A stretch of 43,340 bases of DNA from a virus: IMG/VR virus record IMGVR_UViG_3300035070_002595, positions 1-43,340 of that record. The stretch is one strand, 5' to 3'. Below are positions 445-43,177 of this stretch, one piece after another. Position 1 is the first letter of the stretch, and each line of letters opens with the position of its first letter. The notes under the pieces are model-generated. The model made no database searches and had not been told where the DNA came from. It saw only the letters and a list, made by a program, of their open reading frames with translations. The position numbers and the translations under genes were made by a program.

Positions 445-690
445 ATGAATACTGGAATAGAGAGCTTTAATGCCGAGTTGTCATTGAAATGGATGCCAAT
501 GCTATACGGCTGCGAGCTATACATTGATTTCAACGGCAGGCACTTGCGCATTGGCTACGTCGAGCAAGAAGTTGGTAGCTGGAAATGGTGGTGCGCACCT
601 GATGAAATAGGCTTCGCCGCCAGTCCAGATGCTGCTCAAGAGGAAATCTTAAGTACCCTTGGGATTTCCCGCAGTAGCAAGGATGAGTAG
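445..690 (+). CDS. Hypothetical protein, 81 aa
   Basis: Not recognised. The chosen ATG follows the previous stop by 2 nt and has a purine-rich site (GGCAGGGGG) about 6 nt upstream. Trp-rich centre, no signal peptide or membrane segment, no cysteine pair. The last codons and stop lie inside the second GTAGCAA repeat, so the repeat overlaps coding sequence at both of its complete copies. Confidence 0.65.
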   Translation: MNTGIESFNAELSLKWMPMLYGCELYIDFNGRHLRIGYVEQEVGSWKWWCAPDEIGFAASPDAAQEEILSTLGISRSSKDE

Positions 691-702
691 CAAATGAACG
701 TA
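674..702 (+). repeat. 29-bp repeat with paired GTAGCAA, copy 2
   Basis: Matches 27-55 at 28 of 29 positions. The heptamers are at 674-680 and 687-693, again 13 bp apart. The block ends 1 nt before the tRNA-Gln-like segment at 704. It includes the stop codon of the gene ending at 690 and an ATG at 694. Confidence 0.8.
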
Positions 703-852
703 ATTGAATCCAGAATCGTAGGTTCGAGACCTAGTCCGGCAGCCACTCAAGTTCGCCTATCTTTAGGTCTCCCTGACTCAAATACACCCGGTTACGGCTT
801 AATACGCCTGGGTGTCTGTAGCAAAATGAGTAGCAAGAAGGAGATCGCATGA
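694..852 (+). CDS. Possible 52-aa ORF across the tRNA-like segment
   Basis: An open frame runs from the ATG in repeat copy 2 to a TGA that overlaps the start codon at 849 (ATGA). It begins Met-Asn-Val like the gene at 47 and ends Met-Ser-Ser-Lys-Lys-Glu-Ile-Ala. The product resembles no protein, and its middle is simply the tRNA-like sequence read in one frame. It may be a coupling leader rather than a gene. It has no Shine-Dalgarno of its own. Confidence 0.25.
   Translation: MNVIESRIVGSRPSPAATQVRLSLGLPDSNTPGYGLIRLGVCSKMSSKKEIA
704..745 (+). other. 3' half of a tRNA-Gln(TTG)-like gene; probable attP core
   Basis: Read as tRNA: anticodon TTG (704-706), then AA and the 3' anticodon-stem strand TCCAG, a 4-nt variable region, a T-arm with canonical loop TTCGAGA flanked by GTAGG and CCTAG (one G-G mismatch), acceptor strand TCCGGCA, discriminator G and encoded CCA. 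Nothing upstream pairs with these strands, so there is no 5' half. A tRNA segment running from the anticodon loop to CCA is the usual identity block carried by phages that integrate into tRNA genes. No integrase gene is recognisable in this genome, so an attP role is inference. It could also be a relic. Confidence 0.65.
746..848 (+). promoter_or_regulatory. Region between tRNA-like segment and next gene, with hairpin
   Basis: Apart from the weak 52-aa frame there is no gene here. An inverted repeat ACACCC (784-789) / GGGTGT (810-815) could fold with an interior GG/CC extension. No T-run follows, so it is not a standard terminator. The third GTAGCAA pair (818-824, 830-836) lies just downstream, followed by the strong ribosome site AAGGAG at 838-843 for the gene at 849. 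Confidence 0.35.
818..836 (+). repeat. GTAGCAA pair, copy 3 (partial)
   Basis: Two GTAGCAA heptamers, here 12 bp apart instead of 13. The shared core is ATGAGTAGCAA at 826-836, after which the sequence diverges into the ribosome site of the gene at 849. It sits about 70 bp downstream of the tRNA-like CCA end, while copy 2 flanks the other side. Confidence 0.65.
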
Positions 853-14345: not shown

Positions 14346-14849
14346 CTATTTGGTCATGAGAGCATCCATCGCCTTTGCGATATTCGCTTCTCTGATTGGT
14401 TGCAGGTAGTTGAGGACCAAATCCTCTAAAGGACGAGCTTTCATCCACCGCGTTCCTTTTTCAAGGGCAGCAGCGTATGGAGCGGTATTGCGGAAGGCTG
14501 CATTGGAGAGCCCCCAAACTGTTTCCCGTGCTGGCGTGAGGAGCCAGCTGCGATAGAATAATCCGGTTTGCTTATTGATCGTATCGAGCGGTAGTAGCGA
14601 TGTGGGCCTACGCTTACTGAATACGCCCGGGTAGATCATGTGCCCAGTCGAAAACAAGCCCTTGCCTTGTGACGCCGGAAAGCCTGACGACTTAGCGAGC
14701 GCCCGCTGCATCTTTGTCGAGAACGGCCCCGAGCTCTGGCGCTTCAGGAATGCAAGCCCCTCTCTGGCGCTCTCGTTTTCCGCCCGCATCACTGCCTTCT
14801 CGACAGCTTTCAGAATCGCTTGACGCGCTTTGCCTTTGTCGAATGCCAT
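14346..14849 (-). CDS. Tail completion protein, HK97 gp10-like
   Basis: 167 aa. The C-terminal segment NTAPYAAALEKGTRWMKARP carries the Tyr-Ala...Glu-x-Gly-Thr...Ala-Arg-Pro signature of the HK97-gp10/tail-completion family. The N-terminal 40 residues are a basic helix. It is expected to join the tail tube to the neck. Its first 158 nt overlap the C-terminal codons of the glycosyltransferase gene in another frame, which is unusual; see that entry. Confidence 0.7.
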   Translation of the reverse strand: MAFDKGKARQAILKAVEKAVMRAENESAREGLAFLKRQSSGPFSTKMQRALAKSSGFPASQGKGLFSTGHMIYPGVFSKRRPTSLLPLDTINKQTGLFYRSWLLTPARETVWGLSNAAFRNTAPYAAALEKGTRWMKARPLEDLVLNYLQPIREANIAKAMDALMTK

Positions 14850-15948
14850 CTGCTACCTGCTCGAAAACGGAAGTCCAATCGCCGGATTTCTCCTGCCTGA
14901 CGACGGTGAAATTCGGATACCAAACCGAGTTCGTTCTATCGCCCCACCTGAAGTCGTGAGCCTTACTCAATAGGAGGCTCGTGGGCCGCTTGCAACAGCC
15001 CGAAACGTGGGCTATGGATGTGTCAACGGTGACCACTTCATCCACTGCGCAGAGTGCGGCGGCTGTCTCTTCCCAGGTCACAAGTTCATCGCCCATTCCA
15101 AGGATTCCGTCCACCGTAGACCCTTCTTTGTGGAGGCTGACAAACTGGGCTTTGGGGCAAAGGTTTACAAGCTGTTCGATAGTCTCGTTATCGATCGATC
15201 TTCGCCAATCAAAAGTGTGTGCCGGGTTGCCCTTCCACGCGATTCCAACCGTGTACTTCTTGAACTTCGCCTTGAACTGATCGAACAGCAGTTTGTTGAC
15301 CTTCAGCGGCGTAGGACGGGGTACCTGGCACTTCAATCTGTGCGGCAGGCTCATGACGCTGATGTGCCGATCATTCTCAGGGTCCCACCCATGCGGTGGA
15401 TGGTGATAGCCGCTCGAAGCTATAACCTCGTCGGCAATGTGCCCCAAGAGCCAAACCAAAGATTCGGGCACTTCGAAGACAATGTGCGACGCTGGATACC
15501 TCTGCTTGAGCGCCACGACGTAACGAGAGAATTGCACCACGTCCCCGAGCCCTTGCTCAGACCACACCCACACCGTGCGGCCATTCAGGTTATCATTTCC
15601 GTCCCATGCCGGGAACTGTGTCTTGAGGCTCCTGAAATTCCTCGCAAAGCCCCACTCATACCGCTCCCACCCAGACTCCCACTTTTCTTCGTGGAGGTCT
15701 ATGAGTGCGAGATTCCAAAGCGCGGCAGGAAGGTATGGAGATAGCTCGAGCGACATTTCAACGTGACGCCTTGCAGACTTCACGTCACCCGATTGCAGAA
15801 CAATCGAGCCAAGCAAACAGTGGCCCCACGCATTAAGTGGTTCAAGCTGAACAGCACGCCTTGCCTTTTCTTCGGCTATGTCGAATTTTCTATCTGCGGA
15901 GAGCATCGAGGCGAGCTGGCGGAGTTCGTCCGCCGTTGTTGCCCTCAA
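14692..15948 (-). CDS. TPR-domain glycosyltransferase (GT9/heptosyltransferase-like)
   Basis: 418 aa from TTG 15948, which overlaps the preceding stop as TTGA after GGAGAGCAGG. Residues about 5-100 are TPR-like helical pairs. From about 110 onward the sequence follows the bacterial TPR-glycosyltransferase family: WVWSEQGLGD, VGIAWKGNP, FVSLHKEG, VTVDTSIAHVSG and the late RWGDRTNSVWYP segment. The last 45 residues look random and are the overlap with the gp10-like gene, so the original stop may have been lost. Inserted among connector genes, it may glycosylate a virion protein or a host surface glycan (inference). Confidence 0.8.
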   Translation of the reverse strand: MRATTADELRQLASMLSADRKFDIAEEKARRAVQLEPLNAWGHCLLGSIVLQSGDVKSARRHVEMSLELSPYLPAALWNLALIDLHEEKWESGWERYEWGFARNFRSLKTQFPAWDGNDNLNGRTVWVWSEQGLGDVVQFSRYVVALKQRYPASHIVFEVPESLVWLLGHIADEVIASSGYHHPPHGWDPENDRHISVMSLPHRLKCQVPRPTPLKVNKLLFDQFKAKFKKYTVGIAWKGNPAHTFDWRRSIDNETIEQLVNLCPKAQFVSLHKEGSTVDGILGMGDELVTWEETAAALCAVDEVVTVDTSIAHVSGCCKRPTSLLLSKAHDFRWGDRTNSVWYPNFTVVRQEKSGDWTSVFEQVADGIRQRQSASSDSESCREGSDAGGKRERQRGACIPEAPELGAVLDKDAAGAR

Positions 15949-16451
15949 AAAACCTGCTCTCCCACTTGAAGACCTGGGTGATACTTCAGCGCAGCTGCGA
16001 TCCACTTGTATTGAGCGTCAAGAGCCTCCATATTGGCTTCGTTCATGGCGCTCGAATCGATCTCTCCGGGCTCTATCTCGGTGAAGTAGCTAAACCCGCC
16101 TGCATAGATGGCTTCTTTCAGAATGTAGAGCCTTCCGTGCAGGTACTTCTGGTTTGTGGTCGTCGTGCGATCGATGCACTTCTCGAATAGCCATATCTCA
16201 GTTGGAGCGCGAAACAGCTTGTTTCCTAATCCGAACTCGGTATCTGGTGGAAGTCTTCCATAGAGAATCACGCACATCTTTGCGGTGATTGCTGTTCCTG
16301 CTTCATTCGCAAGCAGTCCTGATAGAACGTCCTGGATCTTCACGCCGCCTATTTGCTCGAAGCTAAAGATGCTTTCCGCCGTCACGCCGCTCAGCGTGGA
16401 GATGATGAGCGTTTGCAGCTCTCCAACGTAGTCAGGAAGGAAGTCAGCCAT
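15945..16451 (-). CDS. Connector or tail terminator protein, 168 aa
   Basis: Position after the head-closure gene suggests a neck or tail-terminator subunit. The mixed alpha/beta composition with an early VGELQTLI helix and later KMCVILYGRLP strand is compatible. No family was firmly recognised. Overlaps: TAATG with the gene upstream, TTGA with the glycosyltransferase downstream. Confidence 0.55.
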   Translation of the reverse strand: MADFLPDYVGELQTLIISTLSGVTAESIFSFEQIGGVKIQDVLSGLLANEAGTAITAKMCVILYGRLPPDTEFGLGNKLFRAPTEIWLFEKCIDRTTTTNQKYLHGRLYILKEAIYAGGFSYFTEIEPGEIDSSAMNEANMEALDAQYKWIAAALKYHPGLQVGEQVF

Positions 16452-34365: not shown

Positions 34366-34584
34366 TCAGAACTGGCCCTCTTGGGTCGCGCCCGCTTCGC
34401 TCGTTTCAGGGGCGGGCGGGCTTTTGGCATATCGCTTGACGATATCCCGGCAAGTCGTCTGCGGGATGCCTGTTTCAGCTTCGATCTTCTGCCAGGGCAT
34501 AGAGCCGGATCGAAGGGCTATTACCCTCATTTCAAGGTGAGTCCACTTCTTCGGCCTGCCTGCTGGAATTTGCGGGATAGTCAT
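34366..34584 (-). CDS. Small HTH protein (homeodomain-like), first gene of the leftward operon
   Basis: 72 aa. After RPKKWTHLEM, residues 18-52 form a helix-turn-helix (MPWQKIEAETGIPQTTCRDIV). The basic start and acidic tail suit a small transcription factor. The ribosome site GGGGGT is directly before the ATG. It faces the divergent region at 34.6-34.7 kb and may control it. Confidence 0.65.
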   Translation of the reverse strand: MTIPQIPAGRPKKWTHLEMRVIALRSGSMPWQKIEAETGIPQTTCRDIVKRYAKSPPAPETSEAGATQEGQF

Positions 34585-35790: not shown

Positions 35791-35996
35791 ACTGGGAAGA
35801 ACACTACAACGAAGCAACAAAGCACGTCGCTCTTGGTGACTGGCCCTCAGCAAAAGAGTGCGTGAGACAGGCGATAGTCGAATGTCCAAACGGCTCTATC
35901 GTCTCCGACCTCTTGACACCCTTGTACGGTGAATGCGCGATACGGACGGCCACAAAATCCAAGTGGCAGAAACTGGTAGAGGCGGTGGGGCTGTGA
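35787..35996 (+). CDS. Small TPR-like helical protein, 69 aa
   Basis: Helix pairs with the pattern EATKHVALGDWPSAKECVRQAI, close to one tetratricopeptide unit. It may be a protein adaptor. The stop overlaps the GTG start of the radical SAM gene (GTGA). Confidence 0.55.
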   Translation: MNWEEHYNEATKHVALGDWPSAKECVRQAIVECPNGSIVSDLLTPLYGECAIRTATKSKWQKLVEAVGL

Positions 35997-37039
35997 GCGA
36001 GATCACGCAGAAATACACGATTCCAACTGGCTATCTGTTCGTGGGAGAATACGAGAAGGGGCCACTTGAAACACTTAGTATTGGCGACTACGGTAAGCGA
36101 TACAACGTCAAGGCAAACTTTCTGGGATACCACGATGAAATCAAGGGCGTTCCCAATGTCCATTGTATGCCGCTGTCTGAGAAATGGGTTATTACGATCA
36201 GCACCCAGCATGGATGTGTGATGAAATGCACGTTCTGTGATGTGCCGAATGTGAAATGGCGCGGGAACGCAACCTTCGAGGAGTTGAAGGCTCAACTCTA
36301 CAACGCCATTGGGCTATTCCCCGAGTGCAATTACACCGAACGCCTGAACATCCATTTTGCGAGAATGGGAGAGCCTATATTCAATGAGGCGGTGTTCGAG
36401 TTCTCGCGGTGGCTGATTGCAAACAAGCGTCAAATTGCAAGCGATACAGGATTGAGAATCGAGGTATTACACCCGGTTCTTACTACGTCATCACCGCGCA
36501 AGTTCGCAAAGTTGGAGGCGCGCATCCTTGAGTGGTGCGAAATTAAGAACGACCTATACAACGGACAGGCAGGACTTCAGTTCTCCATTAACAGCACGTC
36601 GGATGAGCAGAGGTCGGCTATGTATACCGATATGCAAATCTACCTTGACGACCTTGCAAAGATCGCCGAGAAGATGCCGGAGCCTATCAGCCGTAAGTAT
36701 TGCTTGAACTTCGCATTTGCAACGGGAAATGAATGCGACGGTAAGAAAATGGCGGCATGGTTCGACCCAGCAAAGTTTATGTGCAAGATCACTCCGATAC
36801 ACAACAACAATGCTTGCAGGGAACATGGGATCGAAACAGTTGGAGGGTACTCGTCATACGAGCCATATCAAGAGGCGGAGCAGGCGTTGTTGGATGCTGG
36901 ATTCGATGTTCTGACGTTCGTTCCATCGCTCGACGAGGAAGATGGGCTGGTGACTTGCGGAAACGTCATCCTTGGAGGCTCTACGCTCAAGTATGACGAA
37001 GGGCTCATCAAGATCGAAGGACTGCGGAGGTCGGCATGA
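35993..37039 (+). CDS. RlmN-like radical SAM protein
   Basis: 348 aa from GTG 35993. The iron-sulphur motif is C75-x3-C79-x2-C82 in HGCVMKCTFC. It is followed, as in RlmN/Cfr, by a Trp-Arg-Gly-Asn segment, MGEP (125-128) and a FSINSTSDEQR strand. A late Cys in TCGNV (C322) fits the methyl-carrier cysteine of RlmN. The other catalytic cysteine, seven residues before the first cluster cysteine in RlmN, is Thr68 here. An RNA-modifying enzyme is likely, but its exact reaction may differ from RlmN. It sits among small unrecognised genes. Confidence 0.75.
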   Translation: MSEITQKYTIPTGYLFVGEYEKGPLETLSIGDYGKRYNVKANFLGYHDEIKGVPNVHCMPLSEKWVITISTQHGCVMKCTFCDVPNVKWRGNATFEELKAQLYNAIGLFPECNYTERLNIHFARMGEPIFNEAVFEFSRWLIANKRQIASDTGLRIEVLHPVLTTSSPRKFAKLEARILEWCEIKNDLYNGQAGLQFSINSTSDEQRSAMYTDMQIYLDDLAKIAEKMPEPISRKYCLNFAFATGNECDGKKMAAWFDPAKFMCKITPIHNNNACREHGIETVGGYSSYEPYQEAEQALLDAGFDVLTFVPSLDEEDGLVTCGNVILGGSTLKYDEGLIKIEGLRRSA

Positions 37040-38732: not shown

Positions 38733-39112
38733 GTAAATGTCCGAGAGGTTACGATCCGTGCCGACAAATTGGATGCTCATGCCCTATTGAGAATCAGCCA
38801 ATGGACAAGATTGATGCTGAACTCATCGCGGCAGGGATTGATCCCGAACGTTTGGCCCATGAGACTTCCGTACTGGTAAGAGTTATGAAAGAAAAGTACG
38901 AACTCCAAGCCAAACTCGACGCCGCCCTTGCAGATGCAGACCGGTTGAAGGTTGAGTTCATAACACAGCTAAATCACTGGGTTCCGGCTCTTGAGTCCTT
39001 ACAGCGTGCATTGGACGACAAGACTTACGGTGGAGGGAATGTTCCTGGAGGGTTTGCCTATCAGATGAAGGAACTGGCCGACTACCTAAGAGCAAGGGAG
39101 GCAAGTAAGTGA
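38729..39112 (+). CDS. Zinc and coiled-coil protein, 127 aa
   Basis: GTG start. The N-terminus has C4, C11, C16 and C18 in a short Cys-rich stretch, followed by a long coiled coil (residues about 45-85) and a helical end. It immediately precedes one member of the paralogue pair described at 39109; the gene preceding the second member (42552) also ends in a charged helix. Confidence 0.6.
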   Translation: MSKCPRGYDPCRQIGCSCPIENQPMDKIDAELIAAGIDPERLAHETSVLVRVMKEKYELQAKLDAALADADRLKVEFITQLNHWVPALESLQRALDDKTYGGGNVPGGFAYQMKELADYLRAREASK

Positions 39113-39423
39113 TAACAGTTGAAGTCTCTCCCACGATCATTGAGCAGATCAACGAGGAGCCAAAGACGTATTGGCTGGCAGGGCTGAAGTTCCGCGACAA
39201 CAGACCTGGCAACGGGACAATCAACGTGTACACCAGCGAGCGAGCGGCTTGGGTTGCGCGAGAGTATTGGATTGGTACGGGGATTTTCCTGCCAAATCTA
39301 AGTGCGCCCGCAGAGATCGGGGACAGGCAAGCGGCAACTGAGTTTGTGAAAGCACGCGGGGGTCATACCGTTGAAGTCCTCGACGAATCTTTTACGGTCG
39401 TGGACTCTTGGAGGGTGGAATGA
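39109..39423 (+). CDS. Paralogue A of a duplicated small protein, 104 aa
   Basis: GTG start. Strand-rich protein opening with ITVEVSPTIIEQINEEP and ending with a VLDESFTVVDSW segment. The protein at 42860 is a clear paralogue, alike over the whole length with identical ends, and the DNA around both starts is nearly identical. Function unknown. Confidence 0.65.
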   Translation: MITVEVSPTIIEQINEEPKTYWLAGLKFRDNRPGNGTINVYTSERAAWVAREYWIGTGIFLPNLSAPAEIGDRQAATEFVKARGGHTVEVLDESFTVVDSWRVE

Positions 39424-41169: not shown

Positions 41170-41432
41170 GCTTTATCATAACGGTTTGCGTGCCGTTTCC
41201 AGGCAAGCGATTCGGCGAGAGCGTGGAGGAATTGAAGGCGCATGGATTCCATTATGTTCCGACTCGCAAATGCTGGGTCGGAGAATACGGTGGATTCATA
41301 ACGTTCGCCATCGAGGTCGGAGAGTTCGTAGTTGACGGCACGACGCAATGCCCGTTTCCAGAGGGCTGTCCGCTTGATCAATTGCATGACCTTATTGACT
41401 CGTCATGCGACTTCAAGGCGGTAGGTAGATGA
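41166..41432 (+). CDS. Hypothetical protein, 88 aa
   Basis: The first 20 residues form a strand-turn (MSFIITVCVPFPGKRFG), followed by a helix and a beta-rich middle. Not recognised. Two Cys-Pro patterns do not make a clear zinc site. Confidence 0.55.
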   Translation: MSFIITVCVPFPGKRFGESVEELKAHGFHYVPTRKCWVGEYGGFITFAIEVGEFVVDGTTQCPFPEGCPLDQLHDLIDSSCDFKAVGR

Positions 41433-41677
41433 GTGCCTACAAGCGTTTATTCCAAGACGACATCGTAAACGCGTCTTCCGTTGAAGACTTCGCAGCCAGA
41501 TACCGCAGGCATGACCGGTATGGCGCGTTGCCTGAATCGCAGCGAGAAGCAATCCTAAGAGTGCACCGCCAGGAGATCGAAATTCACGGCATTACATGGA
41601 TTGCTGGTTATGACAGTAACACTGGGGGACTGGTTTCGTGGTCGCCAGATGACATGAAAGTGGGTGAAGATTCATGA
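41429..41677 (+). CDS. Hypothetical protein, 82 aa
   Basis: Helical first half with RYRRHDRYGALPESQREAIL, then a short strand pair with two Trp. Not recognised. ATGA overlaps at both ends. Confidence 0.55.
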   Translation: MSAYKRLFQDDIVNASSVEDFAARYRRHDRYGALPESQREAILRVHRQEIEIHGITWIAGYDSNTGGLVSWSPDDMKVGEDS

Positions 41678-42303
41678 GAAGAAAAGTGGTTATCGAAACA
41701 AACGAAGGGCCTCAAACAATTGAGGGGCTCACGGTTAGCGCAGCTCGGAAGCTGCTCGAAAAGGCGCCAGATGATTCGGTCCTCGTGTTCATGTTCGAAA
41801 TGACGCCAACCGTCAGGCGGCAAATGAACCAAGTAGACATGATGATTATGCCCGCCCATGCTGTCTACGGCGGTGACAACTCGGAGGTCTGCTGCATCGT
41901 TGGCCCAGAGATTGAGAATGCGAAGTTCGAAGATCAGTACAGATCACTTCCGCCAGAACCACCGCCCGTTGATAGAACCAACGTCTGCACAACGGACGGG
42001 CAGCCATTGGACCAACGGCCAGAAACCGACTCACCTGATGGACAGCACAAGAACTACAAAGTCCTTTGCGACGATGAAAGGGCAAAGGGTTTTGTGCGGC
42101 CCTACAGAGACGCTTACAAACACCTGAAGTGCGGAACGATCACCAGAATGGGCCCTTCGCTTTCAGGCACCTATGCCCGCGATCCCGGCTTCTACGGCCG
42201 GACGTTCTGTGCGTATTGCAAGGGGCACTTTCCCGTAGGCGACAATGGGGAGTTCCTCTGGATTGAGTCCGATGGAACCGAAGGCCCAAAGGTGGGTACG
42301 TGA
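41674..42303 (+). CDS. Phage protein with conserved C-terminal zinc domain, 209 aa
   Basis: The N-terminal 85 residues are a mixed domain. A Pro/Asp-rich linker leads to a C-terminal domain with GFVRPYRDAY, a Cys in KCGTITRM, then YARDPGFYG and CAYCKGHFPVG. This pattern belongs to a widespread uncharacterised phage family with a probable zinc site. Couples to the next gene by GTGA. Confidence 0.65.
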   Translation: MRRKVVIETNEGPQTIEGLTVSAARKLLEKAPDDSVLVFMFEMTPTVRRQMNQVDMMIMPAHAVYGGDNSEVCCIVGPEIENAKFEDQYRSLPPEPPPVDRTNVCTTDGQPLDQRPETDSPDGQHKNYKVLCDDERAKGFVRPYRDAYKHLKCGTITRMGPSLSGTYARDPGFYGRTFCAYCKGHFPVGDNGEFLWIESDGTEGPKVGT

Positions 42304-42551
42304 GGAACGGCGCTCTGACTACGGCGCGTGGCAAGTGGTGCCGATCAGGAGAGTTCGACTGCTGCAAATCGTGCGGAACGTCCGAACGGCCGCACATGGC
42401 TCTCGGCCTTTGCGAGCGATGCTATTCCAACCACGACTACCACCGCAACCGAGAAAATGAGGTTCGCAAGCGAAAGCTCAAGCGCCTCCAACAAAGAACA
42501 GGCATGGCAAAACCTGTTAAGGGCACAAGAGATATACAGGGAGGCAAGTAA
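42300..42551 (+). CDS. Single zinc-finger protein, 83 aa
   Basis: GTG start. One copy of the finger C-x2-CG-x5-H-x3-GLC-x2-C (within CCKSCGTSERPHMALGLCERC), the same unit as the triple repeat at 30131. The rest is a basic helix rich in Lys/Arg. Likely nucleic-acid binding. Confidence 0.65.
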   Translation: MRNGALTTARGKWCRSGEFDCCKSCGTSERPHMALGLCERCYSNHDYHRNRENEVRKRKLKRLQQRTGMAKPVKGTRDIQGGK

Positions 42552-42863
42552 GTGAACAGTTTAGTTGAGCGACTGAACGCCTGCGCAAACTCGAAGGATC
42601 GGAAACGGATTGCCGAAGGGCTTGCACCGTTGTTTGAAAGGGCTTGCAGTGAGGGGCTTTGGTTCAATGCCAACTATCAGAATATCTGGTTCTCGCCAAA
42701 AGAACTGATTGAGAAATTGGAAAGGGGTAACTTCTGGTGGGGAGTTGCGAACTGGGCGCTTTATCCACCATCGGCATATTTGGCCGCGAAGCAACGCGAG
42801 GTAGATGCCGCAATTCAAGAGCTATCAGAAGCGCAAGAGCGGATCGGGAGGGAAAGTAAGTGA
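42552..42863 (+). CDS. Hypothetical protein, 103 aa
   Basis: GTG start after GGGAGGCAAGTAA. Helical ends with a Trp/Phe-rich middle (NIWFSPKELIEKL, NFWWGVANWAL). Not recognised. It precedes paralogue B as the 127-aa gene precedes paralogue A. Confidence 0.6.
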   Translation: MNSLVERLNACANSKDRKRIAEGLAPLFERACSEGLWFNANYQNIWFSPKELIEKLERGNFWWGVANWALYPPSAYLAAKQREVDAAIQELSEAQERIGRESK

Positions 42864-43177
42864 TAACAGTTGAAGTCTCTCCAACCATCATAGAGCAGAT
42901 CAACGAGGAGCCTGTAACGTATTGGCGGGCAGGGCTGAAGTTCGCAAATGACAATCAGCATCGCTGTGGAATCGTAAACGTTTATCACAGCGAAACTGCG
43001 GCGTGGATTGCACGAGAGTCGCGCCTTGCAGCTGGTTACTTCGTACCTCTCCTAAGCGCACCAGAAGAAATTGGGGACAGGCAAGCCGTCAACAACCAGG
43101 CCAAAACAAGGGGGTGCCACACGGTTCAAGTCCTCGACGAAACTCTGACGGTCGTGGACTCTTGGAGTGTGGAATGA
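42860..43177 (+). CDS. Paralogue B of a duplicated small protein, 105 aa
   Basis: Same opening (ITVEVSPTIIEQINEEP) and same closing VVDSW block as the protein at 39109, with a divergent middle. The copies lie 3.75 kb apart in the same orientation, so an ancestral segment duplication is likely. Function unknown. Confidence 0.65.
   Translation: MITVEVSPTIIEQINEEPVTYWRAGLKFANDNQHRCGIVNVYHSETAAWIARESRLAAGYFVPLLSAPEEIGDRQAVNNQAKTRGCHTVQVLDETLTVVDSWSVE

Follow-up and report, generated by a model that had tools for sequence, protein, structure and literature searches.

Does the half tRNA gene at 704-745 of this genome mark a phage attachment site, and if so, which integrase would have used it? The DNA analysed here, hereafter the window, is the complete record of a circular virus genome, 43,340 bases in length, which begins and ends with the same 77 bases (77-bp end repeat). 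The genome belongs to a tailed phage. On its − strand are virion genes of the HK97 type (portal, S49-type maturation protease, capsid, and terminase). The + strand carries a long operon of small genes, which crosses the circularisation point and reaches ~3.2 kb. A comparison of the first 8 kb of the window with the phage collection returned no similar record. The half tRNA lies within the + strand operon, and it had caught the attention of a first, sequence-only reading, which took it for a phage attachment site with flanking repeats in a genome devoid of a recognizable recombinase.

A tRNA-Gln 3' half in a non-coding gap

The putative common core of the attP is a 42-bp stretch of the + strand (704-745), delimited with a model of tRNA 3' halves and by direct reading. 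It reads ATTGAATCCAGAATC-GTAGG-TTCGAGA-CCTAG-TCCGGCA-G-CCA, with the anticodon TTG at 704-706, the T-arm GTAGG-TTCGAGA-CCTAG at 718-734, the 3' strand of the acceptor, TCCGGCA, at 735-741, the discriminator G (G73) at 742 and the CCA at 743-745. Direct reading also reveals the identity features of tRNA-Gln, namely the UUG anticodon, A72, and G73, and the last eleven bases, TCCGGCAGCCA, are common to the window half and to the tRNA-Gln of Bacillus phage G. The sequence-only reading was therefore right, in position and in content, to recognize here a tRNA-Gln running from TTG to CCA. It was also right that only the 3' half is present: the 5' half is absent and ARAGORN reports no tRNA, which rules out a full tRNA gene in the window.

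The likeness of this stretch to a tRNA exceeds chance. We modelled the 3' half, from position 37 to the CCA, using 79 class I tRNAs from the plasmid and phage loci that we had fetched (L004-L019). The window half scores 22.9 bits under this model, no other place in the window exceeds −0.8, and real halves that were withheld from the model range from 18 to 47 bits (5th percentile 27, median 36). Scores of 22.9 bits or more were reached by 2 of 4983 order-2 Markov sequences of the window's length (p ~4e-4 per genome), and a Gumbel fit of the random-genome scores is more cautious, with a p of 0.0025. When 1.1 Mb of natural DNA that we had fetched was scanned, scores above 12 bits outside masked regions occurred only in three phage loci that bear tRNAs (L004, L013, and L014). 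The Rfam tRNA model did not report the stretch; a true tRNA-Asn half gets 17 bits under that model.

The half also departs from ordinary tRNAs. The T-stem pair 49:65 is G:G, which is seen in 0 of 102 real tRNAs, the variable loop has 4 nt versus 5 nt in all 12 tRNA-Gln compared, and position 33 is an A, not a T. A one-base deletion where the T-stem begins would account for both the G:G mismatch and the short loop. The shape of the loop matters for the search of the host gene (attB). Two genome scans for the host tRNA-Gln gave zero matches with the spacing fixed to a 4-nt variable loop, so both would miss ordinary tRNA-Gln genes, which have a 5-nt loop. A scan of viral contigs for a matching tRNA-Gln, with flexible spacing, also gave zero matches, and the comparison of 703-760 with phage and plasmid records produced only weak ones (E of at least 1), several of them within tRNAs.

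Other tRNA-like sequences were noticed outside the window. A Candidatus Manganitrophus plasmid contains, between genes, the last 26 bases of a tRNA, which match an E. coli-type tRNA-Gln (L012:5999-6026); this tRNA end is possibly the remnant of an attachment site. A phage tRNA-Leu-like gene (L123:315-480; 36.6 bits with the Rfam tRNA model) carries an insertion of ~80-90 bases, possibly an intron or another type of insertion, and is missed by a default run of ARAGORN. Its match to the tRNA half was rejected as an attP, since it is a whole tRNA with an insertion.

The half tRNA is located in a non-coding gap of 158 bases (691-848), defined from the list of gaps and from codon usage. This gap is by far the largest of the operon, where the other gaps between + strand genes do not exceed 63 bases and most neighbouring genes overlap by 4 bases. 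The frame 694-852 is open and ends in ATGA, but its codon usage is non-coding, at −0.15 bits per codon, a value under that of 99.7% of the window's in-frame segments. We thus rejected a protein-coding origin of 694-852, and this objection to the site, foreseen when it was first read, is not borne out. Past the half tRNA, 38 bp downstream of the CCA, direct reading identified an imperfect inverted repeat, ACACCCGG...CCTGGGTGT (784-815, + strand), which forms a stem in the predicted fold. A stable RNA structure in the gap was nevertheless rejected, given that the region folds no better than shuffles on both strands.

Direct repeat pairs of the motif GTAGCAA, which are putative arm-type sites of an integrase, stand on either side of the core on the + strand. 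The left pair (674-693, with copies at 674-680 and 687-693) overlaps the end of the upstream gene, and the right pair spans 818-836 (copies at 818-824 and 830-836). The four copies are exact, and the + strand of the window contains 8 copies of GTAGCAA when 1.7 are expected. Of 200,000 centres of 42 bp picked at random in natural DNA, 2 were flanked on both sides by close pairs of one and the same 7-mer. The flanking repeats described from the sequence alone are hence real, and they extend beyond the gap: a further unit like the left one is present on the + strand at 27-61, with GTAGCAA at 27 and 40 and 32 of 35 bases like 674-708. This copy begins shortly before the gene start at 47 and runs on into that gene. 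The units at 27-61, 674-708, and 818-836 have the form GTAGCAA(0-2 bases)ATGA, which includes a stop and a start codon, and they precede gene starts. The GTAGCAA units may be both arm sites and duplicated junctions between genes.

Relatives with integrases and the search for a recombinase

A search with the capsid returned 80 viral loci, and PF00589 was found in 7 of 20 capsid-relative records. The nearest relative found, G001 (56% identity in the capsid and 57% in the portal), is circular with a 141-bp end repeat and has its virion genes mostly in the order and orientation of the window. It encodes a tyrosine integrase (41364-42398) and carries an intact tRNA half of 36 bits at ~43,087, among repeated TGAACCT motifs and near the junction between the + operon and the tail genes. 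The orientation of its attP is opposite to that of the window's site. Three further relatives (G011, G018, and G026) have tRNA halves close to integrases, and in G018 ATGCACA-like repeats flank both sides of the half. All four integrase-linked halves have perfect T-stems, unlike the window's half.

The order of genes in G026, one of the phages found to carry a gene of the family phrog_33336, is of particular relevance for the window. There, a tRNA half, an integrase, small genes, and a homologue of the phrog_33336 gene follow each other on one strand, and the integrase starts 119 bases after the start of the T-arm. In the window, the half is directly followed by the phrog_33336 gene (849-1274, + strand), which encodes a zinc-finger-like protein, starts 131 bases after the start of the T-arm, and occupies the place of the integrase of G026. 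Hence, relative to the order in G026, the integrase slot is empty in the window.

Viral contigs yielded no relatives when searched with the protein at 2118-2519, the radical SAM protein, or the terminase. The radical SAM protein (35933-37039; phrog_24834) has 49% identity to a protein of Bacteroides phage Versailles and is missing from 15 capsid relatives. A TPR-containing ORF (14692-16005) lies within the virion operon of the window, and its homologue in G001 sits elsewhere in the gene order. Two closely similar genes of one operon (39109-39423 and 42860-43177) both begin with VITVEVSPTIIEQINEEP and are probably the outcome of a recent duplication.

Is there an integrase elsewhere in the window? 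The sequence-only reading had recognized no recombinase, and this holds as far as the tools reach (Pfam, PHROGs, tblastn, the profile of the relatives' integrases, and the catalytic signature). Six-frame searches of the window with PF00589 and PF00239 gave no match at E values up to 10; in control genomes, these searches were positive in 14 of 14 cases for PF00589 and in 13 of 14 for PF00239. The integrases of seven relatives, used in tblastn and as a profile, matched only noise in the window and nothing convincing. When ~50 window ORFs were scanned with Pfam and PHROGs, anything suggestive of an integrase, resolvase, or transposase stayed below the threshold, and not one window ORF has the complete catalytic signature that we applied. 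No recombinase-like gene was found adjoining the half-tRNA site. The serine recombinase that a serine integrase attP would need was likewise not found, with no PF00239 match to the window at an E of 10. A weak helix-turn-helix hint was found at 34366-34584, which does not establish a repressor.

Origin and present state of the site

The anatomy of a tyrosine-integrase attP is present in the window, with a core made of a tRNA 3' half and paired repeats, putative arm sites, on both sides; the cognate integrase gene is missing. We consider it probable, with moderate confidence, that 704-745 served a temperate siphovirus lineage as its attP and was left behind after the loss of the integrase. The ancestor would have integrated into a host tRNA-Gln gene by means of a lambda-type tyrosine integrase that bound the paired arm sites. 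Strand exchange would have taken place near the anticodon loop, and the 3' half borne by the phage would have rebuilt the host tRNA. The integrase gene would subsequently have been lost, probably by a deletion or a replacement adjoining the attP. The site would now survive only as a remnant, in a phage that is probably virulent or cannot integrate on its own. The sequence-only reading had left the choice between a host recombinase, an integrase too diverged to be seen, and a relic; the last fits best and the diverged integrase fits worst. As for its proposal of an attachment site, it gains from the anatomy of flanks and core and from the integrase-linked halves of the relatives, but the exact match to a bacterial tRNA-Gln was not obtained in genome scans fixed to the 4-nt loop spacing.

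The state of the site points in two directions. The damage in the tRNA half argues for decay, and the intact repeats argue that the loss of the integrase was recent or that the site still has some function. Indeed, four exact copies of GTAGCAA would be odd in a long-dead site. The repeat unit is also found at 27-46, away from the core and overlapping stop-start junctions, and may have another role. Moreover, the gene order that reveals an empty slot is taken from a distant relative, G026. The attP of G001 has the opposite orientation and only some of the relatives have integrases, so the window's site may or may not descend from theirs.

An alternative is that the attP is still used, with a tyrosine integrase provided in trans by the host, by another prophage, or by an integrated element. 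The exact conservation of the four flanking repeats would fit such a use, as would the fact that 158 bp of non-coding sequence have persisted in so compact an operon. However, the tRNA-Gln rebuilt upon integration would carry the T-stem mismatch and the short variable loop, and arm sites normally work only with the integrase they belong to. Furthermore, when cyanophage S-TIP37 was deprived of its own integrase by deletion, integration was abolished and the host did not rescue it, in spite of host-encoded integrases (PMC8776855). We thus regard continued use of the site as rather unlikely. The specific case of an integrase-borrowing temperate phage, i.e., a complete tailed phage with a working attP and arm sites that relies for its integration on the integrase of a different phage or element sharing its host, seems to us unlikely.

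It is quite improbable that the stretch was never an attP and is part of a host tRNA-Gln gene that was taken up by recombination together with the hairpin downstream of it. The imperfect tRNA part would be in line with such a capture, and the inverted repeat at 784-815, located 38 bp after the CCA, might correspond to a terminator of the host. Yet the sequence breaks at the anticodon, which is the usual limit of attP cores, and paired repeats are found on both sides of the core. That the window encodes an integrase too diverged for the profiles is very unlikely. Several ORFs of 150-300 aa could be assigned to no family, and two of them gave only low-confidence models when predicted without alignments, which leaves some room for such a protein. 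Against it stand the lack of six-frame matches to PF00589 and PF00239 at an E of 10, the lack of matches to the profile of the relatives' integrases, of a full catalytic signature, and of a candidate adjoining the site, and the ease with which integrases were recognized in seven capsid relatives. Finally, the idea that the tRNA resemblance is a coincidence and that the repeats are merely duplicated stop-start gene junctions, even if compatible with the silence of the Rfam tRNA model and with the repeat unit at the reading-frame starts 47, 694, and 849, is hardly credible, since it needs both a score reached in 2 of 4983 random genomes and a repeat layout found at 2 of 200,000 centres.

Known systems and implications

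The window's site resembles the attP of lambda-type tyrosine integrases that use tRNA 3' halves, such as those of mycobacteriophage Boilgate (attB-4) and of G001, G011, G018, and G026. In this group, as in the window, a core of 30-45 bp starts in the anticodon region and runs to the 3' end of the tRNA, and paired direct repeats flank it on both sides in non-coding DNA. The window differs from the group by the lack of an integrase gene, by the T-stem mismatch, and by the short variable loop. An integration module partly kept and partly missing, as in the window, is known from Oenococcus phage OE33PA, a virulent phage of temperate ancestry. However, OE33PA has kept its integrase and its attP was not identified (PMC6256464), whereas the window would have kept the attP and misses the integrase. 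The tRNA-dependent lysogeny of mycobacteriophage Fionnbharth offers another parallel: its attP overlaps a tRNA, as does the window's site, and need not restore a good tRNA (PMC10865867). This process requires a phage integrase and a phage tRNA (PMC10865867), and the window has neither; in particular, we found in it no phage-encoded full tRNA of the same isotype.

If the attP has indeed been left behind after the loss of the integrase, the window would show a lineage of tailed phages caught between temperate and non-integrating life, in which the attP outlives the enzyme. The presence of a tRNA half in a phage genome would then be no proof of the ability to integrate. If the site is still used, it would imply that integrase borrowing is open to full tailed phages. 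In several uncultured phages, the simple 3'-half detector picked up tRNA halves close to integrases; it could be used to locate attP sites and to name hosts.
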